Positions 279 to 57,269 of a stretch of DNA of 64,000 nt are shown here, piece after piece. The DNA is taken from positions 21,159,428 through 21,223,427 of the forward strand of contig CM037865.1 in the NCBI GenBank assembly GCA_021292105.1, written 5' to 3'. How positions within the stretch are numbered: the first letter of the stretch is position 1; each line of letters opens with the position of its first letter. Both the position numbers and the translations under genes were made by a program. The stretch is from Anadara kagoshimensis. Lineage: Eukaryota > Mollusca > Bivalvia > Arcoida > Arcidae. Under the pieces are notes generated by a model that searched no databases, was not told the DNA's origin, and was given only the letters and a program-made list of their open reading frames with translations.

Positions 279-511
279 CGTCGTGTAAACTAACCTCTAA
301 TGGATAGGTCGTGTAGAAGGAAAAACGTCTTAGGAACTAACCTCTAATGGATAGGTCGTGTAGAAGGAAAAACGTCTTAGGAACTAACCTCTAATGGATA
401 GGTTGTGTAGACGGAAAAAACGTCTTAGGAACTGACCTTTAATAGATAGGTTGTGTAGAAGGAAAAACGTCTTAGGAACTGACCTCTAATAGATAGGTTG
501 TGTAGAAGGAA

Positions 512-19833: not shown

Positions 19834-19990
19834 TAAGAAATAACTTTGATATTTTTTTGGTTTATCATTTTTAACCCCAAAAACCGGTGTGCAAACTTTT
19901 GTATAACCCGCTTCGCGGGATTATACAGTTTGCACACCGGTTTTTGGGGTTAAAAATGATAAACCAAAAAAATATCAAAGTTATTTCTTA
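19834..19990 (+). repeat. 157-bp near-perfect hairpin (foldback element)
   Basis: The two arms are reverse complements over about 74 bp each. The left arm runs TAAGAAATAACTTTGATA ... AACCCCAAAAACCGGTGTGC; the right arm ends TATCAAAGTTATTTCTTA. The centre is GTATAACCCGC-TTC-GCGGGATTATAC. The only departures I can see are an extra TTT in the left arm and a single A bulge in the right. The outer TA on each side could be a target duplication. Arms this similar imply recent origin or ongoing correction. A transcript would form a long double-stranded hairpin. Confidence 0.92.
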
Positions 19991-25683: not shown

Positions 25684-25973
25684 AGTTAAAGTCTGTCCCG
25701 AGCCATTAGGCCCATCAGGCCGGAGCTTATCCCGGTTTCTGTGGCGTTAAGCGACTGAGAGTACAAGACTCTCCCCTGAATGGGACGCCGGTCCATCGCA
25801 GGGTTAACCCCCAGCATTTTTCTGGTACTCATTTATTTTTCAGCTGAGTGAACTGGAACAACGTGAAATTAAGTGTCTTGCTCAAAGACACAACACATCG
25901 CCCGGTCCAGGGATCGAACCCACGACCTTCGAATCATGAGTCCAACGCCTTAACCACTAGGCCACCCGCTTCC
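25684..25973 (-). mobile_element. tRNA-derived SINE
   Basis: The reverse strand begins with GGAAGCGGGTGGCCTAGTGG TTAAGG (A box TGGCCTAGTGG) and continues to GGTCGTGGGTTCGATCCC (B box). GACTCATGATTCGAAGGTCG lies between, so the head resembles tRNA-Met (CAT-type loop). The body has a conserved TTGAGCAAGACACTTAATT block, then TCACTCAGCTG, GGGTTAACCCTGCGATGGAC, and ends near CCTGATGGGCCTAATGG. About 290 bp, no coding frame, no A-rich tail visible. The head is much better preserved than most repeats here, so the insertion is probably fairly young. The precise SINE family is not named with confidence. Confidence 0.9.
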
Positions 25974-35274: not shown

Positions 35275-35440
35275 TTGATGGAGAATCTGTCATGACGTTC
35301 TAGCGTTTGCCTCCGATGAGTTCCGATAGGAGAAAAAACAATGAATCGGAGAAGAAATGATGTTTTCAGGCTGTCTTTTTTTAAAAATATTTTTCTTTCT
35401 GTCTTTCTTATACAATGGTTATCTTTCGGTATAATAAACA

Positions 35441-35508
35441 ATTTATTGCCTTTGAGTGAGGGAGATATAACCATTTGTTCATATCTCCCTCACTCAAAGG
35501 CAATAAAT
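35441..35508 (+). repeat. Perfect 28-bp inverted repeat, 12-bp loop
   Basis: ATTTATTGCCTTTGAGTGAG.. at 35441-35468 is exactly mirrored by ..CTCACTCAAAGGCAATAAAT at 35481-35508. The loop is AACCATTTGTTC. Each arm is flanked by a TATAATA stretch. It could be a small foldback element or a strong transcript hairpin. Confidence 0.95.
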
Positions 35509-36865
35509 GTATAATAGACCCCAGTTTCACATTATTTCTTTATTACAATTTTCCTTGACTTACATTTCGCAAACTTTGAGATCCCTATTAGAAAGATGAA
35601 TTAACGTTATTAAGTATTTAAATTTGCGTTAACATCTCATTAAGCGACGGTTTTGAAACCAAAAGCTGGCTACAAAAACAATCCTCTATTTTGGTAAGAT
35701 GTTTCTTAACTTAAATGTAGCAATTTTGAAATCTTAATAATTTTGTGATTTTTTTTTACAAAGATGTTCAGTAACTTGAACTGTCGATATCACTACAAGC
35801 TTCAAATATCTGTATTGATATTTTCAAAAACTGTTTATTTGTAATTCCTGAAAAATATGGTCAATCTTAGTTAAGAAATGATTGTTAAACCGGGGCTTGT
35901 TTGTGATTAAAGCATACTACATGTTTTGATGTGTTTCAAATGTTGTCAGCATCTAATAGTCCGTATAATTGAAACACTTTCACTTTGATACATCTTAATT
36001 GAAAGTTAAAGCAATGATCAGTTATCCTGTCAAAAATTAATTCAAACTGTCTTTGTCCAAGACATTGTTGATTGGAAGCTTTTTAACTTTGTTTAAGTCA
36101 TTTTCTGTGTTGTCATCTTGACATTTCAAACTCTTTTTGCACCAGACATTGTTGATTGGAAACTTTTTTAGATCTAGAGTTGTTGGAGGCATTTATCCGT
36201 TTTGTGCTGACAGTTATTGACATATATTTATTTTTCAATTTTTTAAAACAAATTTATTGAGTTTGGAACAAATGTTCGCTGTATAAGTAGACTATTTATT
36301 ACATAAACATGACTTGAACAATTTGAAGGCTGCAGTGGCCTTCACATTCATCGTTGTGTGTTATTAATGCGATCTAAGTAGTTAGCCATGCTACCATGCG
36401 ACCTTTTAGAGTGTAGAGTGCACTCACCCGGCACACACATACCCGTTCATTACACTGATGCTCATCAACCAACCAGTAATGGGCTACAACAAGGAATACA
36501 TTTTTTAACTTGCGCTTGATCGTTGAAGAACTCGCTGAGACGATTTTAATTTAAAGGTTAACGACTTATTACCTCTGCCACCATGCACACTATCTATAAA
36601 GGGAAAACTGACAAAGAAACTGTTAAAACAAATCATCAACGTCGTTTGTATGAAACCAACATACTTGTGAAAACAGATTATTAGAAAAAAAGAAACGAAA
36701 AAAGGAAAGAAAAGACCATTAAATGCCTACAGTTTAGCTGTCAACCCCATTACAATGGAGACTATGTGTGCAGAAAAGTATTTTTCATGTAAGTCAGACT
36801 TGTGTGAGAAATGCCTGTCAGACACAGAATCATGAGTCTAAAAATAACAACTAATTACAGGACAT
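35509..36865. other. Non-coding spacer with one short local duplication
   Basis: GACATTGTTGATTGGAA..CTTTTTAA/TT occurs at about 36062 and 36147, each preceded by TCAAACT.TTTT/GTC, a decayed duplication of about 85-90 bp. Nothing else recognised. Confidence 0.5.
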
Positions 36866-39739: not shown

Positions 39740-40645
39740 ATAAAGGTATAACATCCAAGGCATCTTGAAAAATAGTTTTATAATTGGAGATACAATAAAG
39801 GGCAATGACCAATTGCAGACATATTTCTATATAAAGAAATCGTCCAGAAAACATTTGCCAAATGCAACTCAAATGTGTTAAATCATAGTCTGAAGACAAT
39901 TGCCAAAACATTATCCTATATTTATAACGGATAGTGATTTCTTGTCAAATGTTACACTATTTAGACATTGTTAGAATAAATGCTACCCACTGCCATGGCA
40001 CGCGTGTGTGTATCTGGCTCACTTCAAAGCAGTAAATAAAAATTTGTAATCTAGTTGGGGATTACTAATACATGTATATTAATAATTATCATATAATTTA
40101 TGTTTTTTTACATCAATACATTCACTACAACAAATATACACTTGTAATTATTTCAAAACCTGTTTTAGTTTTTTAAGCACTAGACGGCCATTTTTTAAAT
40201 AAAAATCCTCATCAGTAGTGCTCGGACCAAAATTGTGGAAATTTAAATATTTTTAAGATGTTGAAACGAGTAAAATGGAAGGATCAAAATTTATTTTACC
40301 AAATTTACTTGAGGAAATACTTTGAACAATGAAAACAAAACCTTTTGAAGAATTTTAAAATCTAAAAAAACGAAAATAACGAATAAATTTGATGAACAAT
40401 TGTATTTTTCATTAACCTCTTATTTTTAAATTATGATCAACCATTTATATAGCAACAGAATATAGTGTCTCTACTGTTCAGTCGTTTGTAATAAGCTAGT
40501 CTTAAATATATCATCAGTTAGTGTAAATAATGTTTAACATTCAACCGAAGCAATATTATGGTATATGACATTCACTTGGCTTTGTATCATAGCAATATAA
40601 TGTCGTTTATGTTCTAACAATGTTATTAGACTCTTTTGAAACCAT
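39740..40645 (+). repeat. Repeat D unit 2
   Basis: First landmark at 39798 (GCAATGACCAATTGCAGACA, AACTCAAATGTGTTAAATCA, GACAATTGCCAAAAC). Second landmark at about 40505-40545 (TATCATCAGTTAGTG, TTTAACATTCAACCGAAGCA), then TTGGCTTTGTATCATAGCAA. A hammerhead relic lies between the two landmarks. Confidence 0.65.
40176..40222 (-). ncRNA. Hammerhead ribozyme relic 1 (type I layout, core decayed)
   Basis: The reverse strand reads AGCACTA (stem I), CTGATGAG (conserved core), a decayed stem II and GAAA region (ATTTAAAAAA), GGCC, then GTC (cleavage triplet) and TAGTGCT. TAGTGCT is the exact complement of AGCACTA, giving a perfect 7-bp stem I. The GAAA box is lost to substitutions, so this copy should be inactive. 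Flanks (GGACCAAAATTGTG on one side, CTAAAACAGGT on the other) match the copies at 42.9 and 56.9 kb. Type I hammerheads with minimal stem III are known from Penelope-like elements and retrozymes of animals; no Penelope coding region is visible here. Confidence 0.68.
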
Positions 40646-40689
40646 CAATTCTTTAGTTCAGATAAAATCTGGAATTTAATCTATTCTTT

Positions 40690-41040
40690 TTTAAATTAAA
40701 GTATTAAAGTAAACGCTCTTTGACTTTCAAATGCATATGGATTGTTGAATGTCACGATGAAGATGTAGGCATTTCGTAGAAGATAATCAAGGTTCCGTAG
40801 TTCCATGTTTTTTCCTTTCCTAATTTTGATTAAACATAAGCGGGTGTAACTAACTAAAAGGATGGGCTTTCCCTTCTGGAGCATCCAGTCTAATTTTCAA
40901 ATGCATATGGAAACTTGGATGTCATAATGAAGATGTAGGCATTTCGTAGAAGATATTCTAGTTCCATGATTCTTCCATTCTCAATTTTAATTAAAACAAA
41001 CGGATGTGACTAACTAAAGGTATATCATTTAATATACTTA
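40690..41040 (+). repeat. Two-copy tandem duplication, period 180 bp
   Basis: TTTCAAATGCATATGG at 40725 and 40905, each followed by GATGAAGATGTAGGCATTTC (one base different at the start), GTAGAAGATA and later AAACAAACGG or AAACATAAGCGGGTGTAACTAACTAAA. CTTTCCCTTCTGGAGCATCC at 40868 is a B-core trace between the copies, so the unit probably includes a B fragment. Confidence 0.82.
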
Positions 41041-41049
41041 ATCATTGCT

Positions 41050-41306
41050 ACACAAACTAGACTTTGCAAAAGGTATCTCTTACAATGCTTTTATAATTGA
41101 AGATTGTAAGGTCCAGGGCAATGACTAACCGCAGACACGTTTCTACTTAGAAATCGTCTAGGGAACATCTGCCCAATGCAATTCAAATGTGTTAAATCAT
41201 AGTCTCGAGACAATTGCCAAAATATAATCCTATGTTTAAAACAAATGTAGCGATTGATTCCTTGTCAAATTTAATTTAAACATGGGTACAACAATAAATG
41301 CTTGTC

Positions 41307-41340
<34 letters not shown>

Positions 41341-41880
41341 TGCTTTACTACTAACAATGGGTACATTTGTCACGGGTTTTAGGTAACAACTTTGATCATA
41401 ATAAATGTAAATTCAAGTATTATATATATATATATTTTGTGTGAATGCTTTCAGTACAACAACAGCGGTATACTTTCATTTTTGTCTCGTCAGCGGTATT
41501 TAGATTGATACTTTTGTATTCTTTCTGTACATGACTGATTTTTTAATAATGATAAAAAGCCTATCAAGCAGTACAAAAACACTGTTTGTTTGTGGTAATA
41601 AGCAAGTTTTAACAACATCGCAGTATAAATAATTGTGTAACACCGAACCAGAGCAATCATCACAAATGATATTAACTTGGTTTTGTGCCATCGTATTATA
41701 TGTTGTCGCTTTACTATCTCTTCCAACATTGTAAGTGGCTTTCCGAAATACATTAATTAGTAAGTTCAAATGAGTTTTAAATAACATTAGATTTATACTG
41801 ATTAAAATTAACAATACTGTTGATATAAATAATGCCTGTGTATTTAAAAATTGGCCTGGATATATTTGACATAACATAGT
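41050..41880 (+). repeat. Repeat D unit 3
   Basis: First landmark at 41122 (GCAATGACTAACCGCAGACA, AATTCAAATGTGTTAAATCA, AGACAATTGCCAAAAT). Second landmark at about 41585-41655 (TGTTTGTGGTAATAAGCAAG, GTGTAACACCGAACCAGAGC), then TTGGTTTTGTGCCATCG. The 87- and 125-codon reverse frames (41490-41753 and 41500-41877) overlap each other within this repeat and are not genes. Confidence 0.68.
41309..41338 (+). repeat. (TG)15 microsatellite
   Basis: Fifteen perfect TG dinucleotides. A shorter (TA)n run lies at about 41420-41436. Confidence 0.97.
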
Positions 41881-41914
41881 TACATCTTTCTTTTATTCAT
41901 TAATTTGACTACTT

Positions 41915-42060
41915 GGCGGTTGTAGCTAGCTAAATAGGAGTTCCTTATTTTGCTGGAGCTCACGGTTGATGTTCACGTGTTTCACTGCATTTGCCAGTTT
42001 TCAAACTTTTTATTGAGATTTGAACATGGCCTTATATGTTTGTTTTTTAATACAATTGCC
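41915..42060 (+). repeat. Dispersed repeat B, copy 7
   Basis: TAGCTAGCTAAATAGGAGTT, then TGCTGGAGCTCACGGTTGAT, GTTCACGTGTTTCACTGCAT, TTGCCAGTTTTCAAAC and TGAACATGGCCTTATATGTT. It precedes repeat D unit 4 by about 130 bp, the same order as at 38.9-39.0 kb. Confidence 0.65.
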
Positions 42061-42186
42061 GAATATCATAATGAATATGATGTATCATCTACAAAATCAA
42101 AACACTTAATAATAATAGATGAACATCTCTAGACATTCTGAAAAATACCTAGACCTGCGAGAAATATTTAACAAAAACGCATTCAT

Positions 42187-42790
42187 ATTTGGTAGACAGG
42201 AGGCCAAAGGAAATGCCCCATCACAGACATGTTTCTATTTAGACATCGAGCAGGGAGCATCTATCAAGTCCAGCGATTTTATGTTTTGTCTTAATATGAA
42301 GAAAATGGGCAAAACACAATGTTAAATATTGACCCCACATGAAGTGATAGATTGTTTGCCAAGGACATAATTGTTTATGGTTACAAGGATAAATGATGAT
42401 TCCTTTGTTTGTTTTTTACCTCTTACCAGGAGGAAATCTTTCATGGGTCTTGTGATTACTTATCTGTTTATGTAGATGTTTGTTCAAGTATAATTTTGAT
42501 TCAACTTAAATATGTGTTGTCAATGAAGCACCAAAAATTGCGCATGTTATATTTATTAGATTATCACTTTTGATTAATTATTAAAACATCATTGACAAAA
42601 CATGCCATAAATGCTCATAGTTAACTTTATATGTTAAGGATCTCCAGACTTTTGGATTGGTCATTGTAAATCAATTCTCGAGAAACGTTATTGAAAACGC
42701 GTTTTTGCAAATGGCAAACATGTGTAGTTTGCAACTGATAAATCAATCAATACATCTATAACTTATTCATATTATTGCATCAGGTAGATT
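42187..42790 (+). repeat. Repeat D unit 4 (partial)
   Basis: GGAAATGCCCCATCACAGAC, ATGTTTCTATTTAGACATCG, GGGAGCATCTATCAAGTCC and TGGTTACAAGGATAA match the first D landmark in units 1-3. The second landmark is not recognised before the hammerhead relic at 42.87 kb. Confidence 0.55.
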
Positions 42791-42869
42791 TGGTAAAATC
42801 AATTTTCGTTTTTCCATTTCTCTCATTTCTACATGTTAAAAATATTTGTTCTGCCACACTTGTAGTCTA

Positions 42870-42900
42870 AGCATTACTGATGAAACCGCCTGCTAGTGCT
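42870..42900 (+). ncRNA. Hammerhead ribozyme relic 2 (stem II deleted)
   Basis: AGCATTA, CTGATGA, AACCGCC, TGC, TAGTGCT. The two outer heptamers pair along all 7 positions with one G-U pair, and the CTGATGA core is intact. Stem II and the GA of the GAAA box are missing, which looks like a deletion of about 15 bases between CTGATGA and AAC. The GTC triplet is TGC. Downstream AGAAAATTAAAACAGGTA matches the other copies; upstream ACATGTTAAAAATATTTG matches relic 1's ACATCTTAAAAATATTTA. It cannot cleave as it stands. Confidence 0.62.
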
Positions 42901-43092
42901 AGAAAATTAAAACAGGTAAAAATTACTTTTAAATTTCTCTTAAAATTTATCGGCTAAAATAAAGACCCCAAAAGACTTCAAACTTTATTGTTTATATCAT
43001 TTTTGTTCTGGTACATTTGAACCAAGACATTACTAAATAAGACCTAAAGACATTTCAAAATAAAACTTAAATACACACAATGTATTGTGTGA

Positions 43093-43525
43093 AAAAGTCG
43101 AGAAAGTAATCCATGCGGTATTGACCAATGGAAAATCTGTCAAAAACAGAGGTGTTTGTATCAAGCTATGGCACAAAACACAATATGTTAACCAAGGACA
43201 TGTTTATTGCTTAATCAGATATCTTATTATTTTGTAAGTGAATATATTACTTTCTTGGTCAAAAGTCATTTCAATGTAAAGAAATAAAAAAACTACCACA
43301 TTAAGTTGTAAGAAATAAATCCGATGAATTAGTAAAGAATATTTACAACCAGTTTGTGAAAACTCCAACACAAATATACTGGTATATACTCTTTAGCCAG
43401 CAGTCTAGCGAAATATAAGAAATCCTCTCGCGTGGTTGTGATAATCAGCCAATATGAATATTAACTGTGTAACATAAAACCTGAGCCATCATCACAAATA
43501 ACATTTGTAATTTGTCAATGACACA
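43093..43525 (+). repeat. Repeat D unit 5 (partial)
   Basis: GGTATTGACCAATGGAAAAT, CACAAAACACAATATGTTAA, CCAAGGACATG, then at 43430-43500 GGTTGTGATAATCAGCCAAT, GTGTAACATAAAACCTGAGC and CATCATCACAAATAACATTT. Most decayed of the forward D units. Confidence 0.55.
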
Positions 43526-45760
43526 AGTCTATGTGACCCGTGACAATTTGTTGTCTCTTAAGTTTAGGTTCCGTTCAATTTTCGATTCTTAAATACGTGT
43601 GAATATTTGGAAATTTCTAGAACCTAATTACTAAAGGATTTCCTTCATGGCTTTGAAATACACAAGGGTGTCGAATGTCATACAAGTTCATTAAGTGTAG
43701 ATACAAGTTAGGGTCATAGAAACGTGACACTAAGTAGATACTAAGGTTGTAATCTCTTTCTGTCCTTAACTTGCCTTTAACTTGTTCTTGAATCTGTTTG
43801 TTGTCACCAAGTACAAGCTATTAGCTATTATCGATTAAGGTTCAAATCCGACACTGATTTTTATGCTAGTTTTTTTTGACAAACAATGACACATAACCAT
43901 AAACATTTATCATGAAGCTTTGTTTAAAAACAGTACAACAATAAGCCCTTCATTACATATGTTATCCATACAAAATTTAAGAATATTTTTTCATTATTAC
44001 TTGATTATTTTGATTTTTGTTGATATAAGAAAGACATTTGCAACTAACAAACATTATATTATGATAAAGAAAATGCAACCAAATTACGACGATAATATCA
44101 ATTAAATAATAAGCTGCAAAGACGCACTAGATAGTCACAAAAGATCGTTCTATGAATATAGTATTATTTATAGAATTTATCATAAACGCCGATGTGTACT
44201 TTAACAACACAAAGGAGGTTTTATTATGTAGGACAATGATTACCATCTTAATACCGATCAACACTTTCAACTGACGTAGATCTCAAAACACTTGGGAATA
44301 AAAAACACTTTATGGAAAATTAGAACATTTAACCGCATTTAGCACGTAGGCTAGAATTTCTTTGCCATTCATAAATGTATGGCAATAAATACTTATTATA
44401 GTGTCATTTATATAACCCAGTCTAAAAGCTATCACTTTCTTTAAAAAAATAATATATATGTATGGAATACATAACTGCTTACAGAAAGCAACTTCTAAAT
44501 TACAACCTTAAAAGCTCTTAAATGTTGGTGTTTTATTTTGTTTTTTAGTTTTATTTATTTTCATTAGGTAAGAAATGTTTGGAAATACACATAATTAAAA
44601 GAAAAACCTTCCAGAACTAATATTATAAACGGAGAAAAAACTTTTCCATAAATGTAGTGATAAGAAGTGGTTTTTGTTGGAAATGTCTTAATAATTTCTT
44701 GAAATACAATTTTATTAAGAACCATAATTGTGATTTGGTCATCATTTGACGATAAGTGCAGCTCTATTGAGACAATATTTGGAATGAATGCTCCTACTCC
44801 CCAGCTTAGTTTATCCTAAATATAAAAAATATCAAAACCTGATGTTATCTTTGTAATGAATCCTCACAGCCTCTTGACTAGCTACAAATTAACAAATGGC
44901 GTGTAAATTGTTGGATAATACCCCCAGGTAATATTCTATTTATTTTTAAAACCGGTGGGGATTATTAAAATAATGCACATTTTAAATAATTGATATTTTT
45001 TCGCGTAAATATACGCTGGCTGCTAACATTATTTGAATTATCAAAATTTCGATTTGGCATGAGGCTGCGAGGATTCATTTCGAACTTTACTTCAAGTTTT
45101 GGTATTTTGAATTTTAAAATTTATCTCTCTAGGTTTAAGGGCATTAAAATGTAGTATCGTCTCGTTTGTGCTGTGTATACCGTATCTGGGTTGTAAAAAG
45201 TAAGCCAGAATTGCCATTTGGGTGCATAACCAGAACAATAACAGTCAGCTGTAGGTCACTTTGTGATTACATACTTCTGAAATAATTTCTGTCGTATTAG
45301 TAATACATTTGTTGAAAATGTTTACAAAACATTTAAGATCTATATTCTTTATTTTTATTGATGCTAGTAAAACCGCTTAAAGTGCAGTGGTAGGGACGTC
45401 CACTACTTGCGCTGGAGAACTGTTTGTGCCATTATGAACATTTTCAATAAAATCATAAATAAACAAAGTTTTGTTGTGGCGTCTTTGACCACACCCATTT
45501 TTCAGAACATGTTCTTTCCTTTTCTTCTCCATCTAAATAATAATAGGAAAAAATTTAAAGGCTAAAGCTGACAAACTATTCAAGATAAAACTGAATGGAA
45601 ATATTATAAACAATCATATCAAAACTGTCGAGTTTCAAATCTAAGTTTTTAGGTAATTTGATCTAAATCATGTTATAGACGCTTTCATGCTAACGTATCA
45701 CAGTGCCTCCTACCGCCTACGTTCAAATCTTAAATCGGGACAGATTTTAATGTGATAACA
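43526..45760. other. Non-coding spacer, nothing recognised
   Basis: About 2.2 kb of AT-rich DNA with only accidental short frames (for example 43920-44105). No repeat copy, RNA or coding signal could be supported. Confidence 0.5.
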
Positions 45761-45773
45761 TTTGTCAGTTCGC

Positions 45774-46329
45774 ATTTCTAGTCAAGAAAAATTGAACAAA
45801 GAGTTAAATGTAGATATTCATTGGAAATTTGTTAATAGAAATGTAATGAAATTTACACCTGATGTTAAACTAAGGTGGTTTCAATTCCGAATTGTTCACA
45901 GAATTTTGGCTACAAATGATTTCTTATATAAAATTCAAATAAAAGAGTCTGCAAAATGTTCTTTTTGTGCATCATCAAATGAAAGTCTTCTGCATCTTTT
46001 TTGGAATTGTAATATAGTAACATCTTTTTGGGAAAGTCTTCAACTTTGGGTTCTACAAAAAACAAATAAAAGACTAATTTGCACTAAACAGTGTGTATTA
46101 CTAAGTACTAGGTATATCAAATAACGCCACAAATACTATATTGTGTTTGGCAAAATTACATATTTATCGAAAAAGGCTAGCTAACTCTGTTCCACCTTTA
46201 AAATCATATCAAAATTTCCTAATGAATTACCTAAAAAGTGAAAAATACATGTATATAAGATTAGGAAATCAAAAGGATTTCTTGGAGAAGTGGATTGAAT
46301 ATACAGAAATTATCAAATATTTCCAAGTA
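45774..46329 (+). pseudogene. LINE ORF2 C-terminal fragment with zinc knuckle, frameshifted
   Basis: Frame 1 (to the stop at 46124) encodes about 115 residues, including KLRWFQFRIVHRILATNDFL and a CX2C-X8-H-X4-C motif (CSFCASSNESLLHLFWNC), the signature of the zinc-binding region that follows the reverse transcriptase in L1/Tx1-type LINEs (zf-RVT). A frameshift between about 46100 and 46140 moves the rest (LAKLHIYRKRLANSVPPLKS..., about 60 residues) to another frame. The apparent start at 45762 lies in the target duplication, outside the element, so the frame has no natural start. No catalytic reverse-transcriptase motif remains. Not functional. Confidence 0.9.
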
Positions 46330-46454
46330 TAAAAACTATTGGTTATGTTGGTATGGATGTGTGTATGTGCGGGAGAATGTTGTATCTAGTCTTTGTTATT
46401 AAGTCTGTAAAATATTTAAAAATATTGAAAATAAAAAAAAAATTTAAAAAAAAG
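45774..46454 (+). mobile_element. 5'-truncated L1/Tx1-like LINE with 13-bp target duplication
   Basis: The target duplication TTTGTCAGTTCGC lies at 45761-45773 and again at 46455-46467. Between them is the very 3' end of a LINE: the end of its second open frame, a short untranslated tail and an A-rich terminus (from about 46419, AATATTGAAAATAAAAAAAA). 5' truncation, an A-rich tail and a target duplication are the hallmarks of target-primed reverse transcription. The perfect duplication suggests a fairly recent insertion, although the frame is already broken. The sequence across the empty site (ATAACA-TTTGTCAGTTCGC-TTGCCG) can be read directly. Confidence 0.93.
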
Positions 46455-46467
46455 TTTGTCAGTTCGC

Positions 46468-47124
46468 TTGCCGAAAGTAGGTGGTTTTCTTCTAAAATTG
46501 CTACCTCGATATCAGTGTAAAAAGAACTCCTTCAGGCTAGCATCTACAATATAAGTATCGTATGTACATTTAATACTACTAGACATGTAAAGGTCATCAG
46601 AATGTTCGACATTGAATCAATATATTCATTGGATAAACTAACGGACTAAAATCAGATTTTCATTCATAAATGACTATTATACTCTAACGTATATTTAATC
46701 TCTCATGCGTATCAAAAGGTCATATAGACGTACAAAATGCATTTCATACCTCAGGGGACTGTGGTAGGATAATTATATTTTGTTTTAACAGACAGACCGG
46801 CCCTTGTCCAAATTACAATCCCAAAAGCAAAGCAAAATCTTAAAAATTAGATTAAACACATGACCTTTTACGTTCTTCTTTGAAGATATACATATTGTTG
46901 AATTGTTGTTCAATAATAGAACAATAATATGTATTGTCAAATATTCCAAACGGTAAATGTCTAATCAGAAATATTCTACATCACTGTCTTGGATTTCAAA
47001 CGCGCGACAATATGAATAAAATGTTTCATGGTAATTCGCCTACATGTTTACACGTTGACGAAGGCTCAGCGATGGAGGTGACAATATGTCGTCCGGTTTA
47101 TCCAAAGTGCATAACGTGACATAC
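46468..47124 (-). repeat. Spacer containing a decayed repeat B copy (8)
   Basis: 46795-46870 reads ACAGACCGGCCCTTGTCCAA, ATTACAATCCCAAAAGCAAA and TTAGATTAAACACATGACC, the outer half of repeat B in reverse orientation, without the CCGGAAGGGTAAGCACC core. The rest is unrecognised. Confidence 0.45.
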
Positions 47125-47480
47125 ATGTTTAAACTAAGGTGACTAAATGTATTGATTTCATTACAAATATTTGACAAATACAGATTCTCCTTGATGCATT
47201 TACATTGTTTAATATGAAGAAAGAAATATAGGTAACACAATAAGTTGTTTATGATGAATCAAGACTTTATTGAATGTATAGCTGCACAAAGTTGTTTGTA
47301 AATTTTAAACTAAAGTGACTGAGTTTAATGATTCCATTATAAATATTTGTCAAAATATAGCTTCTGCTTGATGTATTTACATTGTTCAATTTGGAAAAAG
47401 GAATATAGGTAACGCAATAAGTTGTTTCTGATGAATCAAGATTTTATTCAATGCATAGCAGCACATAGTTGTTGCTAAAT
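47125..47480 (+). repeat. Two-copy tandem duplication, period about 176 bp
   Basis: AAACTAAGGTGACT at 47131 and AAACTAAAGTGACT at 47307. Both copies share TCTCCTTGATG or TCTGCTTGATG, ATTTACATTGTT.AAT, GAATATAGGTAAC.CAATAA (GAAATATAGG in copy 1) and GATGAATCAAGA.TTTATT. The TCTGATGAATC in copy 2 is not a hammerhead; no GAAA box or pairing heptamers exist. Confidence 0.88.
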
Positions 47481-48189
47481 ATAAATGAAAAAAATCCCAA
47501 AGTTTAGTTGGCTAAACCATACTTCACTCTTCTTTTCCTAGAACCCCCTTTTCCCCTCGATTGAAAATACCCAGTATAATGAATTTAAATACCCGATCAT
47601 ACAACATTAGAAAAATACAAATTGTACATTGTTTGATCACTCAAGATTAAATTTTTGGTGATTTATGAAAACCAGTGGTCATGTCTAATGACAAAGTAAA
47701 CCTAAATACCCAATACATCTAACAGCTTTGACCAAAATTAAAAAAAATACATGTTACTCACAGATCGTAAGTCCGTATTGCTATGTGAAATATATAATTA
47801 AGATTTCCAATGGCGGAAATTTTACAGTAAAGTACGTGATTTAATGATGCAAACTGGAAGATTTATTTGCAGCCATTCCTGGCTTTCATACCGCGTAAAC
47901 AAACCTTTTATCAATAAAAAAGAAAGAAAATGTATTTTTATTAGATATATGGAAATATAAGGAGTATGAACTTCAAGTAACATTTATTGAAGCGTAGAAG
48001 TCACAAGTTAACGCGTAATTTTATAAACTACATTGAAGCATACTTCTCTTTAAACAAAATATATTTGTTTGGACAAAAATATCTGAAAGGGAAATTCTGA
48101 TTTCAGATCAGGTTTACTTAGTTGTCAGGTCACAATTGATATCTCCATAGAAACCAGAAAAAACGAAACATAAATCAACTGGTGTTAAT
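47481..48189. other. Non-coding spacer, nothing recognised
   Basis: AT-rich spacer. Confidence 0.5.
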
Positions 48190-48955
48190 TCTGAAGATTG
48201 TGGTTCCCTATGCACCTAATGTACATATTAGTATTTAAGTCTCTGAATCATGTTGTGCTTTTCAACTTTTTTCATGAATTCACGCTTTTTTGGACAATTT
48301 AGATTTGTAGTAATAGATTAATAGAAAACTACTTTTGGTTTTATCACAATCTTCGATAGTTTGATAATAGCCAATTTGGTTTATATAAATCATTATAAAC
48401 ACTTTTATAAAAGCAAAACTAAAAGCAATTACTGTTTAAAAAACCACAACACGTACATTACCCTTACATGTCTTAAATTGACAGAACAGCAACTGAAGAG
48501 AATTTATATTACCATGTGACAAAGCCAAATCAATGTTATTTACGATTATTGCTCCGTTCCAATGTTACACAGTATTTACACTGCTGATGATGTCGTTTAG
48601 ACTGACTGATTATCACAACCAAACATTAGCAAATGAAACCATGAATTGACTGCCATATAAAAAGAGTATTGTAATCTGTCTGTCAACGTATCATAAACTG
48701 AACGGATCTTGGCTAATATATCAGAAACTGACCATGTGTATAATGTTTCTAATAAAACGATGAACGAATAATATTTCTAGAAAATCAACAATTTTATGTA
48801 CGAGTCATTTGACTTTAGTTGCTCTTAGAACGTTTTATTCTGTATCAATTATTTCGAAACATTTTTATTAAACATCAGCAATTATAAAGCCCTATCATGA
48901 ATTTATTTTCCTGTTGTTGGTGTTAAACAAGTGCTTTGCACTAGGGATTTTTGTC
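48190..48955 (-). repeat. D-related tandem array, unit A (uninterrupted)
   Basis: First of three tandem units. Landmarks are ACGTACATTACCCTTACATG, ACAAAGCCAAATCAATGTTA, AATGTTACACAGTATTTACA, CTGCTGATGATGTC, GACTGATTATCACAACCAAA, CTGACCATGTGTATAATGTT, CAGCAATTATAAAG and CCTGTTGTTGG..TTAAACAA. Read on the reverse strand these are the repeat D second landmark (CATCATCAGCAGTG, GTGTAACATTG), so the array is in inverse orientation to 39-43 kb. Unit A carries no insertion and serves as the empty-site reference for units B and C. Confidence 0.85.
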
Positions 48956-49376
48956 ACGTTTGTCATATAGCTTTAAATGTTGTCTTTCGTTGCTGGGTGT
49001 CATAAGTGAGTTGTTAGTCTAAAATTGAAGCACATATGCACCTGTTGTATATTTTAATCTCTGCGTCTTTGACGCTTTATGAGCTAATTTCATGAATTCA
49101 GCCTGTGGACAGATTGGATTCGTTAAAAGAAAAAAATCATTTGATTTCATCACGATCCTCGACAGTCTAAAAAGATACATTAACAAAGCAAACCTAAATA
49201 TTACGATTGTTCGAAAAACACGACCCGTTCATTACCTCTTACATGTCGTAAATTGACGGAACAAAACATGAGGAGAATTTATATTAGCCTTTGACAAAGC
49301 TAAATCAATGTTATTTACGATGATTGCTCCAGTCCAATGTTACACAGTATTTACACTGCTGATGATGTCCTTTATA

Positions 49377-50000
49377 AAGAATGGAACAATCTAGAGGATT
49401 AGTGACGAATTCATTCGGAACATCCTCTGGATGTGAAATGATAAAGGCGACAACTTTCTCATTTTTAGCAGCGTATTACAGCACTTTTGAGGAAGTTGAG
49501 AAAAAAAATTCAGGATTTTGCTCAAACTTTCTGAGTTTATGGAGTCTAATGCGATCCAGCTATCTAACTTGATTAGAATTTTGGTAAAACTTCGGATCAA
49601 TACTTAATATTAGGATGAAACATGCAAAAAATGGATTTTTCAGAAAACAATAACGTTAAACGCACTCCTGTTCAATAACCGTTCATTGTACGAAAAAGTC
49701 GTCCATTGACCGAAAAAAGTTTAAGATCTGACGGAAAAGACGGTATTTTTATATTTTTTCTATCTTGCACATAAAATCCACAATAATTGTATCATCACAA
49801 TAAATATAACGTACCGTTTCGAATTCATACCCATAATAAAGTAAAAAATTCTTTACCGAATTATTGGTAGGTTTGGCACTTATCCGTTAGGTCTGTGTTA
49901 ATCTTTTGAGTGGCAAGTTCTGTGGATGAGCTCTACTAATAGAAATCTTCTAGATTGTTCCATTCTTTCCCGCGAAACCCCTAAAGGTGTCGCCACACTA
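49377..50000 (+). mobile_element. Transposon G, short copy (624 bp)
   Basis: Starts AAGAATGGAACAATCTAGAG and ends with TCTAGATTGTTCCATTCTTT then GGTGTCGCCACACTA, so GAATGGAACAATCTAGA is an inverted repeat, near-terminal on the right and terminal on the left. TA lies on both sides (49375-49376 and 50001-50002), and the empty site is readable in unit A. Relative to the 1480-bp copy it lacks two internal blocks (counterparts of about 50468-51155 and 51220-51395). No transposase. The short open frames here are accidental. TA targeting suggests Tc1/mariner-type mobilisation. Confidence 0.87.
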
Positions 50001-50060
50001 TACTGACTGATTATCACAACCAAACGTTAGAAAATATAACTATGAATTGACTTGCAGATA

Positions 50061-51540
50061 AAGAATGGAACAATCTAGAGGATAGTGACGAATTCATTCG
50101 GAACATCTTCTGGATGTGAAATGATTAAGGCGACAACTTTCACCTTTTTTGCCGCATATATCAGGACTTTTTAGAAAGTTGAGAAAAAAATAAAGGATTT
50201 TCCTCAAACTTTCTGAGTTTATGGAGTCTAATGCGATCTAGCTATCTAACTTGGTTAGATTTTTGGGAAAACTTCGGATCATACTTAATTTTTGGATCAA
50301 ACATGCAAAAATGGACTTTTCATCCCAAATTTCTGTTTAACCCACTCCTGCTCAATAACCGTTCATTATACAAAAAAGTCGTCCATTGACCGAAAAAAGT
50401 TTAAGATCTTACGGAAAAAACGGTATTTTTAGATTTTTTCTATCTTGTACACAAAATCAACAATAAGTGTTTAAAGTTGACCCTATCGCCCAAAATAAAA
50501 GTTCCGCTACTTAGCGCGTGCAGACTGTGTGAGAATGAATTTTCTCAAAAAACGCAGTCATGTCTTTAGTTACCAACTTGAAAGTCGGTCAAAATATGTT
50601 TTAAAGTATTAAGAAAATAATGGTATTTTCATAATTTTTTTTATTTTATGTACAAAATCAACCCGGTCTTCCAATACACAAAGTGCGCCAAGTTGCACGT
50701 GTGATTTCTGCATATCATTATAATTATCCAATCAGCGAACGGCATCTGAAGATGCCTTCAACGGCAAGAAGCCATGTCGATGTTCTTTGATGACACTGGC
50801 GGTTAGTAAGGTGGCGTTACTAGACATTATTATGGTGTGTTATCTGCCGTAAGTAACATAATAGAATGATTAAACACATACTAAACAAAAGACAAAGATT
50901 TTTGATTGAGAAAAAACTGATTTTCATTTGGTGAAAAAAAAGCCAACTGTCCGATCTCTTTATGAAGTGTTGTACAGCGTACGAGTCCAACTTTCGCAAC
51001 TGTGTTTACAAAATTATTCTATATCTGAATTTCATATGATCCTCACAAGTTGACGATTGTCCTCTGATCTTCACACGTTTATTTTCACACACCTTATCCA
51101 TTTTAAACTTCACAAGACCAATGACGTCTGTTTAAAAACTTGTGTGGTAGGATTTAACGTACCGCTTTGAATTCGTACCCATTAAAATATAATCATTTTT
51201 TTACCAAATTATTTTTTGAATAAATACAAATAAAATAATTATGTCGAAATGGTTCCAAAACTCGGAGCTGCCGAGGGGCCTGTGGGAGGTCTATAGCTGC
51301 CAAGGGACAGAATGAGCTCCAAACATTTGACTGGACAGCTTCAACATGTTGACTTCTCGAGGGACCAAGCTGTCCAAAGCTCGGTTCCCCCGGTAAGTTT
51401 GGCACTAATTCGTTAGGTCAGTGTTAAACTTTTGAGTGGCAAGTTCTGTGAATGAGCTCTAATAAACTTGTGTAGAATCTAGAAATCCTCTAGATTGTTC
51501 CATTCTTCTCGCGAAACCCCTAAAGGTGTCGCCACACTAG
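50061..51540 (+). mobile_element. Transposon G, long copy (1480 bp)
   Basis: Same ends as the short copy: AAGAATGGAACAATCTAGAG at 50061 and GGTGTCGCCACACTAG at 51540. TA flanks at 50059-50060 and 51541-51542. The first 420 bp match the short copy closely (TCGTCCATTGACCGAAAAAA, GTTTAAGATCT). The block 51220-51440 resembles MITE A in style (CTCGGAGCTGCCGAGGGGCC; CACTAATTCGTTAGGTCAGT then GTTAAACTTTTGA), so G and A may be related, or G may have captured part of A. No transposase frame is visible, so it is non-autonomous although longer. Confidence 0.85.
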
Positions 51541-51814
51541 TAAAAAAAAGTATTGTAATCTTTAAGTGAACACATAATAAACTCGACAGATCTTGGCTAA
51601 TATATTAGTAACTGACCATGTGTATAATGTTTCGAATGAAACGATGAACGAATGGTATTTCTAAAAAGTCAACAATTTTATGTTCCAGTGATTTGACTTT
51701 ATTAGTGGTTATAACGTTTTATTCCTTATCAGTCACTGTTTATTAAACATCAGCAATTATAAAGTCCTATCATGGATTTATTTCCTGTTGTTGGTTTTAA
51801 ACAAGTGCTTTTCC

Positions 51815-52059
51815 ACCAGGGACGTAAAACAGGGTATTCTGGAAGGGTAAACACTTTTTATCTAGCTAGCTATATGCGTCTTGCGTCCAATTTAGTTAAC
51901 ATAAGAACATGAGAATTGAACCAGTCCTCCACAAGTGCAAGTATGTCCTGACTAGCTAGCTACATTCGCCATGTGTAAAAGAATTAATTTAAATTAAAAC
52001 AAGAGCTCGAGAGGCAGGTACAGTACTGTGTAGAAACGAAAGTTGAAACACTTAATTCA
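51815..52059 (-). repeat. Dispersed repeat B, copy 9, at the unit B/C junction
   Basis: CTTTTCCACCAGGGACGTAA, then CAGGGTATTCTGGAAGGGTA, AACAC, and TAGCTAGCTA twice (about 51872 and 51953). The A/B junction (48.95 kb) keeps only a trace (TTTGCACTAGGGATTTTTGT), so part of a B repeat belongs to the original tandem unit and was largely deleted there. Confidence 0.62.
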
Positions 52060-53770
52060 CCACATTTGTCATATAGATTTTAATCTTGTCTTCCGTGGGT
52101 ATGTGTCATACTTGAGCTGTTGCTTCAAATATCAAGCAGAACTTGAATAATCAGTCGTATCTTATTCGAAGCTAACTTAGATAGTGGTCAAATTGGATTT
52201 GTCAGTATAACCTCCGAAAACCGATGGTCCTCTGGACCGGAAAAAAATTCGGTTTTGACAGGTTTCGGTTTACAGAGGTTTAACCAAGAGGTATTTGTCC
52301 CTAATGATAATGAAGGAATCAATGGAAATAAGCTCCCTTGGGATGTATTATTGCCATACGTAGTGACCAAAGCCACTCTGTGTATTAATAAAATTGACAG
52401 TTGTACATGAACTTGATATTTTATTTTGAAAATGTAATTTCAAATAAGGTGATATAAAATTTTAAAAAAGTATTGTTGTGTTGAGCTGTTACGGTACAAT
52501 TGCATCATCCACATGCCGTGATGCACGTGGTTTTCTTCGGAAGAAAATTAATTGTCAAATTAATGGTGTTTGTAAATGTGACACCTGTCAGTACGTCGAA
52601 CTTGCAATAAAAATCCATGGGGACTCGATATGTCGCTTCAATACACAATGACTTTGTTCAATTGAAAAATTAACGTTTTCAAGATGTGTCTATGCCGGTT
52701 GGGATATCTTTTAGGCCGATATGTTGCTTTTTCATTTTATAGTCCTTTTCGGTTTTCTAAATAATAAATTCGCGTTGTTTGCACAAAAATGTGATTTTCT
52801 TTATGAATGGAGATACAGTTTGCTGCGCAGTGTTATGTTGTAACAAAGCCTGAAGGGTACCTTTGATCTTTCAAATGTTTAGATACAAAACCGAACGCAC
52901 ACCTGACCTGAATAAACAAAATTTAAGCGGTTCCCATTTTCCGAGTGTTACTGACACCTTTTCGACAAAAAGTTTTGAGCAGTATTGTTTCTTAATTGGT
53001 AATTAAGATCGCTATTGTTTGTGTTGATTAAATGTCCCGTCCGATTGTCAGGTAACTTTAAACAAAATAAACAAACGAAAATACGACGAGAACAAACTTT
53101 ATTAAGTACTGTACTGTATCGATTAGAAGCATGGTTTTTAACATATAGAATAAAGGGTAAAAAATTCGGAACCGACAGATCCGGCCGGTTTTGACAGGAA
53201 TTCGGTTTTCAAAGGGTTCGGTTTCCGGAGGTGTAACAAACATTTGATTTCATCACGATCCAGGCAGTTTGAAAAGAACAAAGTTGTTCAATGAAATCAA
53301 TAAAACAATATTTTAAAAGCAAAATTAAAAATCCCTTATTGTTTGAAAACCACGACTCTTACATTACCCTTACATGTTTCAAATTGATAGAACAGCAACT
53401 GAAGAGAATTTATATTACCCTGTGACAAAGCCAAATCAATGTTATTTATGATGATTGCTCCGGTTAATGTTACGTAGTATTTATACTGCTGCTTATTTCG
53501 TTTAGACTGACTGGTAATCACAAATATTAGCAAATAAAACCAAGAATTGACTCCCATATAAAAAGAGTATTGTAATATATCTGTCAACGTATCACAAACT
53601 GACCACAATGTGTCTATTTTATCGCAAAATTTACAAAAGCTTATTGTACGTTATTTTACTTACTTTATTTTTTATAATAATGTTTGATTCTTAGCCACTC
53701 ATTTTAAGACATTAGGTATTACACATCGGGTTTTATAAAGTCCAATTGAGTGTTTATTTTCTTGTTGCGG
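52060..53770 (-). repeat. D-related tandem array, unit C (one transposon inserted)
   Basis: Starts ACATTTGTCATATAG, matching the start of unit B at 48.96 kb. It stops at CAAATTGGATTTGT (52201), resumes with CATTTGATTTCATCACGATC after the Tigger-like insertion, and then follows unit A/B landmarks (CCACGACTC..TACATTACCC, TGTGACAAAGCCAAATCAAT, GGTTAATGTTACGTAGTATT) to about 53770. Confidence 0.82.
52202..53236 (+). mobile_element. Tigger/pogo-like non-autonomous DNA transposon (about 1.03 kb)
   Basis: The left end is CAGTATAACCTCCGAAAACC then GATGGTCCTCTGG ... TTCGGTTTTGACAGG. The right end, as written, is TTTTGACAGGAATTCGGTTTTC ... GGTTTCCGGAGGTGTAAC, an inverted copy. CAGT tips with an AACCTC block recall Tigger/pogo elements. 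The interior shows no DDE transposase frame. Borders are confirmed because sister unit B reads GATTGGATTCGTT ... CATTTGATTTCATCACGATC without it. The TA target is not clean on the left side, so the exact base borders are uncertain. Two 61-62-codon reverse frames at the ends translate the inverted repeats and are not genes. Confidence 0.78.
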
Positions 53771-53773
53771 GGG

Positions 53774-53799
53774 TTATTATTATTAGTAGTAGTAGTAGT
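53774..53799 (+). repeat. TTA/AGT trinucleotide microsatellite
   Basis: TTATTATTATT followed by five AGT triplets. Confidence 0.92.
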
Positions 53800-53954
53800 G
53801 TTTTATTTCATGGTTGTTGTTGGGTTTATTTGCTTTTGGTGGCCAAATACATGTTGTCAAAAACAAATTCATTTATCGTCTTACTTTTTTAATCAAACAC
53901 TAACGGACCGATTTATGTCCAGAAAACAATTCAAGAAGCAAAATAAATAACTGA

Positions 53955-54150
53955 TTTATTAAAATAAACACGCAAACTTCAACTAGGGAAGTGACGCCGG
54001 GTGCTCAGAAGGAGTAAGCACCTCCTGTCTAACAAGCTACTCACCAACTGTGAAATTGAAGTTCAAAATGAAAGGACCACAGAAGTATGACACGTCAAAT
54101 ATATTCAGGGTATTTTTTATGATAACATACTTTGCAATACTGTGACGACG
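53955..54150 (-). repeat. Dispersed repeat B, copy 10
   Basis: CAACTAGGGAAGTGACGCCG, GGTGCTCAGAAGGAGTAAGC, ACCTCCTGTCTAAC, then GTATGACACGTCAAATATAT, CAGGG and CTGTGACGACGGCCAT. The last blocks match the extended B copy nested in MITE A at 24.9 kb, which shows that the element runs at least 100 bp beyond the core. Confidence 0.75.
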
Positions 54151-55849
54151 GCCATTAAGGTCTGGTGATAACTAACATTGAAACAGTAAGAATACATAAC
54201 AAGAATCGAGAGTCCACAAATCTGTATATTTTCTTTTATCAAACTATGATACAAGCATTAATCAACTATGACGCATGAACATAAAAAACAAATGATACTG
54301 ATATATTGCTTTCTTAATCAACTAAATTAACTTCTATACCAAGCTGTCGTAATGAAATGAAACAAATTAATTTTTGTATTGAAGGTAATTGCAACGAAGG
54401 ATTGCCATAAAAGAAACATAAACATCTTATGACATAAAATGTTTATATTAATCGGAGGGTAATAAATATGTTGATTTCATGTCTTAAGATAATCTAGTTT
54501 GGCAATGTAAATTGTAAAAAGGAAACAAACGGCTGTCAAAAGAACGACGTAGCTTGAGTGAACATCCACACCATTTAACTGTTTTGCAAAAACAATTTTG
54601 TCAATGATAAGTTTTAGCATTACAAAAACAATCCTATATAACACAGATGTGTTTTGGTGTCTATTCACTGACGACGTCTGAGGCTGCGGTGACATTATGG
54701 ATAAAACCTACAATTTCATTGCCTCTCACAGCTGTGAGTTGGGGCCCCGCTTAGACCACATGTGGGAAAGTAAATTTTCTTTGTCGTTAGCCTTTACTGT
54801 TTCACCTGGTCTTAGTATAATATGATCTGGGGAGTGGCACGCTTATCTGCGGCTTACTGACTCTGTGAACTAGCACGTTAAAGTCGCCCTGAGTGCGCGC
54901 TAGTAAAAGGCAGACCATACACAATCGCATAGAACACACGCGCACTTCACAGGCATACACAAACTTGTTAATAGATTTATCCATAGAGATTAATAAAACA
55001 GTTCGGACGTGCGAAAAAATATGCAACATTAAGCAACATTCAAACAACCAACCTTACGATATATGCAAGAATGTATCTTTAATGTCTATATATAAATATA
55101 TCGGCGATTGATTGTTATTGTTGCTTCTTAACCATACTTGACTATATTGTAAAAATGAAACTTCAATGAATATTAACATATACTAGCAAATGTGATTCTA
55201 GAATTCAACCAGAAAGTATTGAAAATATTGAAATAGGTAAATGTCACGTCTTAACTGCATAGAAGGTAAACAAACAGTAGCTGATGCTATTCAGAAAAGT
55301 TTGGTTACAATTTTCAATAAAAATATTAAATTTCTCAGGACTTAACTAAACGCCTAGATACATGTCTTATACTGATAATAAAAAGTTTCCTTACAGTTTT
55401 CAAGTGAACTCATGCAATTGAAAAACACTAATGTGGTTAAATTCCATATACACAGGCAACTGACACAGATATCGATTAGAGCACTGAGGGATAACATACA
55501 TATTACAGTAATTTACACTATTTAGCCACATTTAGCATGTTGGCGCCTTTTTACATATAAATGTTTCAATTTTGGTTTAATATATATAGAAATATTAACA
55601 GAAGTAGATATTGTTTATGAATCGAAATGGTCTGTACATAAACTTCATACCACTGTTTCAAAATAGATTGGGTTATAATTCCAAACAATTCTCGAAAACC
55701 TTTCTGTAAATTGTCTCTATGTACATAGAATAAAAATGTACTTATTTTAAATAAAATGAGTGGATACGCATCCAAATAACAATTCAATAAACCAGACAAA
55801 GCAGTAAGCAGTATTTATGACTTATAAAATATTGCTTAACTGACAAATT
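54151..55849. other. Non-coding spacer, nothing recognised
   Basis: AT-rich, except for a small less AT-rich patch near 54715-54910 (GAGTTGGGGCCCCGCTTAG, CACGCTTATCTGCGGC). Opposed short frames (54802-55047 and 54893-55111) overlap on both strands and are not supported as genes. Confidence 0.5.
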
Positions 55850-55920
55850 AAGTAAAACATAGTAACTTCCGATGGGGTGCTCCGGAAAAGTAAACACCTC
55901 ATACCTACGTCCTACACTAA
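55850..55920 (-). repeat. Dispersed repeat B, copy 11 (short)
   Basis: GTAACTTCCGATGGGGTGCT then CCGGAAAAGTAAACACCTC: B core in reverse orientation with the middle deleted. Confidence 0.6.
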
Positions 55921-56850
55921 ATAAAAAAGAATATTTACATATGCACATTAAAGTAACAATGAGTCTTGTTTTCAAAATATAAACACAACTATTTGGGTTC
56001 ATAATTTGATGCTACGTCTTTTACTTTATTTGCCAGTTATCAAAAAGTTTAATTTGAATTGTCGTTTGAACATTGCTTATACTTGCATTATGAACTTTAA
56101 CTTGGAAGTTACGTGGTAAATATTGATTGGATTGATTGTCCAAATTTTGTGCTGAGACAAATACCTATACATACTCTTTTAAAAATATGATTTATTTGTT
56201 TTTATCTTGCTAAAAATCCTCTACTATTGATATGAAATAAAGTTGTTTTTTTTAAAAAAAAAAATCATGTATTCTAACTAAATAAAATATTTGTAAACCA
56301 AAAAACTTACACAGCAATTTAAAAAACATTTATATTTAATTACCCAATTCATTAACCAATTCCAAAAAGATGGAAATTGACAAGCCAATTTAAGATAAGA
56401 CAAGTATATATTAAGTCCAATCATATTCAAGTGATTGAATTTCAAATCTATTTCCAAGTTAAATTAATCTATTGATAGCATTGGTGTTTTTGCGATTTCT
56501 AGAAAAGATTGACATCAAATATAATTTAAGTTGTTAAATGCAGCAAGAAAAGCAATCAAAACACTTCAAATTTCTCGTCAGAGTTTTTGATGAAATTGAA
56601 GCATTTTATTCCAATCATTCTTCTAAACATGACTTAAAGAAGTGTAACATTTCAACCATATACATCAATCATTGTGTTAACATTGATGTTGAGATCTTAG
56701 CTTAGTTCAATGTCTGAGTTAAACATCTTAAATTCTGGTCGCTATAAAGAATTTAAGTTAGAGTACTATTGCTTTGCAAACATTCTTTAATCGGCAATTT
56801 GCAAGTCAAAACACACAGTGCATCGTATATTTTATGTCCAACGTGTCGTA
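55921..56850. other. Non-coding spacer, nothing recognised
   Basis: AT-rich spacer. Confidence 0.5.
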
Positions 56851-56880
56851 TTAATTAACATATACCAGTTTTAATTTTAT

Positions 56881-56926
56881 AGCATTAGCCGGTCGTTTCG
56901 GAATACAATTGTTCATCAGTAGTACA
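56881..56926 (-). ncRNA. Hammerhead ribozyme relic 3 (both core boxes intact)
   Basis: The reverse strand reads TGTACTA, CTGATGA, a stem II region ACAATTGTATT, CCGAAAC, GACCGGC and TAATGCT. This is the only copy with both CTGATGA and CGAAAC intact and about 15 nt apart, as in the known minimal hammerhead. Stem I is weakened (five of seven pairs, one G-U) and the cleavage triplet is GGC instead of GTC, so activity is unlikely. Downstream ATAAAATTAAAACTGGTATA and upstream CACAATTTCGGTCC match the other two copies, showing one dispersed family. Confidence 0.7.
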
Positions 56927-56989
56927 TGGACCGAAATTGTGAAACTAATTTTTCCAGGATGTTGAAAAGATGGTTATTTCGTCTAGCAC

Positions 56990-57269
56990 CAAACGTAAAG
57001 CAATTCAAAATAAATTGAAAATACAATAATAGAATGCTAGTGGGTTTAATAGACAACGCATATATTTTGTTTGGAAATGTAATTTTTCAACAAACAATTA
57101 GTAGCCCTATGTGCACATACTGTACACCATTGTTTGCTGTTTTTTTTACTTATATGAAAAAGAGTTAATATAAATTTACAGTACATTCAAATATATAGAT
57201 AACTTTCTATCTCTTTATATTCATTAATTTATAGAACATGCGAATGTCATATATTATAATTGTTATTCT
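56990..57269. other. Non-coding spacer, nothing recognised
   Basis: AT-rich spacer. Confidence 0.5.

Follow-up and report, generated by a model that had tools for sequence, protein, structure and literature searches.

The 64,000-nucleotide stretch of the Anadara kagoshimensis genome analysed here (hereafter the window), which lies on contig C9 of the 1.115-Gb assembly, contains three old insertions, each truncated at its 5' end and holding the remnant of a hammerhead ribozyme; they derive from a small non-coding element of the animal non-long-terminal-repeat (non-LTR) retrozyme kind, a type of retrotransposon. Copy 1 (40146..40362, minus strand; ~82% identical to the reference unit over 204 aligned positions) comprises a hammerhead remnant (40176..40222, minus) and a decayed 3' tail ending ...TAATT, the tail end having been read by eye; its hammerhead keeps the AGCACTA/TAGTGCT heptamers intact, along with CTGATGA and GTC, the GAAA box being lost and stem II broken. 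Copy 2 (42763..42924, plus strand, end read by eye; 79% identity over 158 aligned positions) retains CTGATGA and the TAGTGC of stem I in its hammerhead remnant (42870..42900, plus), from which stem II has gone through a 15-nt deletion. Copy 3 (56853..56971, minus strand; 87% identity over 114 aligned positions), the alignment of which extends to the unit end, has both CTGATGA and CGAAAC in its remnant (56881..56926, minus), with stem I damaged and GTC changed to GGC. Because parts of the catalytic core or the cleavage site have been lost in these copies, all three should be inert. A direct repeat (40728-40790 and 40898-40960, ~170 bp apart), recognised by eye, adjoins copy 1.

The three copies are homologous beyond the hammerhead motif, with local alignment scores of 142, 103 and 72; the highest scores among 500 dinucleotide shuffles per comparison were 55, 61 and 41, respectively. 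A covariance model, R1, built from 42 hammerheads elsewhere in the genome, none of them from the window, gave as its top three matches in the window exactly these sites (43.5 bits, E 7.6e-11 for copy 1; 26.5 bits, E 1.6e-5 for copy 2; 44.1 bits, E 5.1e-11 for copy 3), the next three having E-values of 0.22, 0.28 and 1.6; all of these E-values are rough, coming from a short calibration. An nhmmer profile of 48 whole copies located the same insertions at 40158-40362 (E 1.7e-28), 42763-42919 (E 3.2e-15) and 56861-56971 (E 4.3e-28), after which the next match was at E 0.3, the best in the reversed window being 5.3. The first-pass annotation, made from the window alone, had described these sites as relics of a dispersed type I hammerhead family with common flanks, had listed which parts of the motif each copy keeps or lacks, and had deduced an ancestor with an open stem I and a very short stem III. 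The positions, the motif inventories and the common flanks are all borne out by the sequence, the alignments and the R1 matches, and the deduced ancestor matches the genome copies described below. The term relics suits the window copies; outside the window, most of the highest-scoring units have 95-98% identity with the two units used as queries.

The same annotation had reasoned that the match would be due to chance if other genome copies lacked CTGATGA and GAAA. Copies elsewhere do keep both: genome-wide, the pattern CTGATGA-N6-34-CGAAAC-N2-20-TAGTGC has 6,370 exact matches, compared with 2 for the reversed pattern. The commonest form among the copies sampled, AGCACTA-CTGATGA-GGAATTGTATTCC-GAAAC-GGCC-GTC-TAGTGCT, consists of stem I (AGCACTA/TAGTGCT), stem II (GGAAT(TGT)ATTCC), GAAA, a stem III of 2-3 pairs and the triplet GTC, and the family has the type I order, i.e. 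CUGANGA, stem II, GAAA, short stem III, NUH and an open stem I. One natural unit folded as a circle has both stems I and II in its minimum-energy fold. The first-pass annotation had suggested a covariance-model search of the genome with the type I hammerhead model; the Rfam model gave no match at its gathering threshold, either in the window, where there was also no match at E up to 10 over 12000-64000 and none over 40100-40300, or in the whole genome, where Hammerhead_1 gave 0 matches, 14 control genomes also giving none. When RF00163 (Hammerhead_1) was run on six loci, the best score was 28.1 bits, for a unit of the L003 array, and 17.9 bits was obtained three times in that array, all below the gathering score of 34 bits; the blank results in the window and in the genome arise because the family scores fall below that threshold. 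The retrozyme hammerhead is a new family missed by Rfam, which shows that hammerheads present in thousands of copies can go unnoticed when the gathering threshold is applied.

Each hammerhead lies in a non-coding repeat unit of ~339 bp, which is partly arranged in tandem, with one type I hammerhead per unit; tandem spacings are 339, 357 and 325 bp, and an array of 339-bp units is present at C1:310274-311966. One natural unit has a GC content of 33.6% and a longest stop-free stretch of 83 aa round the circle. Animal non-LTR retrozymes are recognised as hammerhead-containing repeats of 150-450 bp that are tandem, low in GC and non-coding, and all of these features are found here; judged by its sequence features, the family is a new one of this known kind. 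Two further traits ascribed to the kind are target-site duplications of more than 4 bp, where such duplications occur, and plentiful circular RNA in tissues. The first-pass annotation had likened the layout to that of Penelope-like elements and animal retrozymes, of which the likeness to retrozymes stands, whereas the element itself, having a non-coding unit, is not a Penelope-like element. According to PMC7229834 (Cervera and de la Pena 2020), the retrozymes of the mussel Mytilus galloprovincialis have ~5000 copies with repeats of ~350-390 bp, and, as there described, they have in common with the present family a type I hammerhead, an AT-rich non-coding repeat of a few hundred bp, a tandem arrangement and thousands of copies per genome; the unit here is ~339 bp, the comparison being one of descriptions, not of sequences. 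A phage database queried with copy 1 returned three short weak matches, which we take as chance. Unit positions 290 and 49 were considered as the ends of the element and rejected, since seven junctions show the repeat continuing past them and these boundaries are cuts made by the search tool; from the genome unit search that has these boundaries, nothing was taken beyond the size of the units, their identity and their arrangement in tandem.

The copies have a common 3' end. The tail, ACTGGTATAATATGTAAT, has 17,480 genome matches with one mismatch allowed, compared with 10 for the reversed pattern, and at 30 tail-anchored loci drawn from the 17,480 and read by eye, retrozyme sequence of varying length lies upstream, with other DNA or a further unit after it; at 3 of the 30 the retrozyme is only 26-28 nt long. 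The count of 3' ends was anchored on the hammerhead, hence the tail was not presupposed. Anchoring in this way gave 73 distinct copies; a further unit follows directly in 11 of them, and the other 62 end, 53 of the latter within -2 to +5 nt of TGTAATT, which is ~38 nt past the cleavage site. The other terminal copies end either 7-25 nt earlier (8 of 62, including 3 with alike flanks that are probably duplicates of one insertion) or 8 nt later (1 of 62). A run of six or more A residues within 12 nt after the end occurs in 0 of 69 copies, and there is therefore no trace of polyadenylation. The accessible part of the work on mussel retrozymes (PMC7229834) makes no mention of a fixed 3' end. More widely, in the freely available main texts consulted, no account was found of retrozyme copies having a 3' end in common, and the one paper found on retrozymes together with target-primed reverse transcription concerned LTR elements.

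The hammerhead and tail patterns demand TAGTGC or the tail, and are blind to copies that end at the cleavage site. The commonest hammerhead was consequently also followed only as far as GTC, where it has 3,061 exact matches; TAGTGC follows exactly in 2,447 of these (79.9%) and, as a control for mutation, GCACTA precedes exactly in 2,566 (83.8%). The excess without TAGTGC is 119/3,061, so that copies stopping at the cut make up at most a few per cent. The first 13.95 Mb of C1 contain 49 of the matches up to GTC; by hand comparison, TAGTGC follows in 40 of these, and in 2 others the tail is found 50 nt further along. A fuzzy scan of fetched loci, themselves chosen by pattern or tail, found 91 hammerheads, of which 84 are followed by both the stem I strand and the tail, 6 by stem I only, 1 by the tail only and 0 by neither. 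With one common 3' end and few cut-ended copies, it follows that copying begins at a point within the unit and proceeds across a cleavage site that is either uncut or re-ligated; the cleavage site was unbroken in the templates that were copied. We infer that the common 3' end marks the start of reverse transcription.

The 5' ends present a different picture. All of the loci L001-L100 lie within the first 9.9 Mb of contig C1 and overlap in places, near-identical pairs with alike flanks (L051/L056, L054/L057, L082/L083, L098/L099 and L068-L070) having been kept in the sample. From 124 candidate rows, 69 terminal copies were retained after dropping units continued by another unit, repeat detections, poor end matches and copies reaching the edge of the aligned stretch. 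These 69 copies span 26-577 nt with scattered 5' ends; just one has a length of 330-348 nt, i.e. there is no peak at one unit, and at least 9 are longer than one unit, which is a lower bound because the filter removed the longest arrays. The hammerhead-anchored loci supplied 51 of the 69, most of them necessarily long enough to hold the hammerhead; the 18 tail-anchored copies span 26-331 nt. We make no claim for a cluster of 5' ends just beyond one unit, which rests partly on the tool-cut search and on about a dozen insertions. Within the 9 over-unit insertions, rare variants are common to both passes at 6 of 791 positions, compared with 3 of 6,258 between insertions, and both passes were therefore copied from a single monomer sequence. 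These insertions fit repeated reading of a circle, and equally an uncut multimer from a homogeneous array. At the junctions, the best direct repeat has a mean length of 4.10 nt, compared with 3.48 nt in reshuffled pairs (maximum 3.85 in 200), and the 308-bp retrozyme insertion in L015 (C1:700055-703092) is flanked by a target-site duplication of 26 bp, which is perfect. The AT content of insertion sites is slightly raised (70.7% versus 67.5%, sign-flip p 0.023), an observation that we do not use as evidence.

The genome also contains resident Penelope-like elements. A search for GIY-YIG listed 50 places in the genome, and locus L101 (C15:54985500-54990900) contains a Penelope-like element with an uninterrupted frame of 762 aa bearing reverse transcriptase and GIY-YIG domains. 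L101 and L103 have RVT_1 and GIY-YIG above the Pfam cut-offs; the frame at L102 has GIY-YIG alone. An inverted partial copy, 97% identical, adjoins L101. A strict hammerhead scan of three Penelope-like loci, in which stem II had to be paired without interruption from its first base pair onward, found none. A looser scan, designed after three of the loci had been seen and requiring the core, GAAA, the cleavage triplet and a stem I of at least 5 pairs, with stem II not required, identified minimal type I hammerheads in 6 of 8 three-prime regions (7 loci), compared with 6 in 2,400 shuffles. Those at L102 and L104 are without stem II, the core at L102 starting with A rather than C; a hammerhead recognised by eye at L106, with only ~3 stem I pairs, was left out of the count, and L105, which does not resemble this Penelope-like element, has no hammerhead. 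When up to two mismatches were tolerated, one of these minimal hammerhead sequences matched the genome 25 times (control 0). By hand comparison, 7 of these matches follow one or another of the 50 GIY-YIG places at a distance of 98-106 bp. Between related copies of the elements, of which there are few, homology stops ~42-54 nt past the cleavage site in some pairs and ~75 nt past it in another. Hammerheads in Penelope-like elements were reportedly described by Cervera and de la Pena in 2014. The first-pass annotation had suggested searching the genome for intact copies, in tandem or flanking a frame with reverse transcriptase and GIY-YIG; the tandem units were found, whereas the elements with that frame carry a different, smaller hammerhead.

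The Penelope-like elements provide a parallel to the way in which the retrozyme copies end. A Penelope-like element of Anolis starts reverse transcription internally, downstream of its hammerhead; it does so at two neighbouring sites, which coincide with the ends of its copies in the genome, and with uncut RNA as the main substrate, and internal initiation of this type is reported to be unique to Penelope-like elements (PMC11167929). As in that system, the hammerhead here lies upstream of the putative internal start and the copies end tens of nucleotides past the cleavage site; the retrozyme ends thus resemble those expected from the Anolis rule, which we regard as a likeness of mode and not of membership. 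The differences are that Penelope-like elements encode a reverse transcriptase with GIY-YIG, whereas stop-free stretches in the retrozyme unit do not exceed 83 aa, and that their hammerhead and tail sequences differ from those of the retrozyme.

We consider that these results are probably explained by a retrozyme cycle with an internal start of copying past the cleavage site, on a circular or multimeric template and with a Penelope-like enzyme. Tandem units would be transcribed, the type I hammerhead would cut each unit at GTC^TAGTGC, and the monomer RNA would be closed into a circle. The copies themselves indicate that synthesis of complementary DNA mostly begins ~38 nt downstream of the cleavage site, at a single point within the unit (...ACTGGTATAATATGTAATT), runs 5'-ward through the unbroken cleavage site, and stops at scattered points, sometimes after passing a full unit. 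The template would be the circle or an uncut multimer, and the enzyme a Penelope-like reverse transcriptase, a type known to start internally near its own hammerhead. Both the circle-template model and Penelope-like elements as movers have been proposed previously, as set out in PMC7229834 and PMC7761336. The present results lend support to the proposal that Penelope-like enzymes move the retrozyme. A more specific version, which we put forward tentatively as something short of probable, is that retrozymes parasitise Penelope-like elements, an idea already put forward in those two papers, and that the reverse transcriptase of these elements may take up the circular RNA, start at a fixed internal point ~38 nt past the cleavage site, and go round the circle more than once.

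Several points weigh against this explanation. Cutting and closure are assumed by analogy with published coral, mussel and axolotl retrozymes, transcription is likewise presumed, and the copies expected from a circle are also those expected from an uncut linear multimer. Of the 6 copies folded, 4 have both stem I and stem II at minimum energy. In 42 hammerheads chosen for CTGATGA, CGAAAC and TAGTGC, standard pairs make up 90.3% of cells over 15 pairs, compared with 90.6% when the 3' letters are shuffled, and 0 of the 15 pairs are changed on both sides; the lack of covariation and the equality with shuffles are what near-identical copies would be expected to give. TAGTGC falls short of its control by 3.9 points, and a small number of cut-ended copies could be hidden in this difference. 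A 5' end within 3 nt of the cut occurs in 1 of 27 informative copies (the 18 tail-anchored and the 9 over-unit), the test being a weak one. Junction repeats of at least 7 nt are found in 5 of 69 copies, compared with a control mean of 1.4 and a maximum of 5 in 200, individual target-site duplications being weak. With respect to the enzyme, comparison of the retrozyme unit with three Penelope-like loci revealed no sequence similarity, and the 3' ends of Penelope-like elements mostly run into (TA)n, whereas those of the retrozymes do not.

The alternative that survives best, which we nonetheless regard as doubtful, is that linear transcripts rather than circles are the template, with a natural end at the tail and a hammerhead that is uncut when copied, as with Anolis in vitro. 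The presence of ATTAAA in the tail, ~25 nt upstream of the end, is consistent with a linear template, as is the finding that unprocessed RNA is the dominant substrate in PMC11167929. However, none of the 69 copies has the A-run after its end, and the over-unit insertions with scattered 5' starts (at least 9 of 69) need a multimer or a circle. Slightly less likely again, in our view, is movement of the element by a reverse transcriptase of the long interspersed nuclear element (LINE) type through ordinary target-primed reverse transcription. Truncation at the 5' end with a fixed 3' end, as seen here, is a hallmark of LINEs and short interspersed nuclear elements (SINEs) too, and the window contains a LINE-like frame fragment (45759-46124, 121 aa) that by eye is like the end of a LINE reverse transcriptase; yet the start lies internally relative to hammerhead-cut RNA, a property unique to Penelope-like elements according to PMC11167929, and no LINE with the 18-nt tail was seen among the 30 tail-anchored loci (of 17,480), LINE 3' ends as such not having been searched. 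The view that the hammerhead-like motifs of the window are chance matches in AT-rich DNA, to which the incomplete motif of each window copy taken alone and the blank Rfam results might be thought to point, is already refuted by the homologous flanks, the thousands of intact copies and the independent model matches at the exact sites.

The window contains other repeats and structured elements. A satellite with a 47-bp unit (~230 copies, 92% matches) and a strong strand GC skew occupies 288-11165. A sequence at 25903-25966 (minus) resembles a transfer RNA, scoring 28.9 bits against Rfam's 29, and is possibly the head of a transfer RNA-derived SINE. Long, near-perfect hairpins at 19853-19971 and 35436-35513 are perhaps small inverted-repeat DNA transposons, and the microRNA labels given to them look like chance.

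Through the common 3' end of the Anadara retrozymes, which lies beyond a cleavage site that is unbroken, the published circle-template model can be tested within a single genome, and this end fits the published guess that Penelope-like enzymes are used. The map of the probable start of reverse transcription is the part of this work that specialists would want tested. If retrozymes do parasitise Penelope-like elements in the manner proposed, the hammerhead may adjoin the start site in both partners because it helps to form or expose that site, and the copies present in any animal genome would reveal both the position of the start site and the family of enzymes by which its retrozymes are moved.

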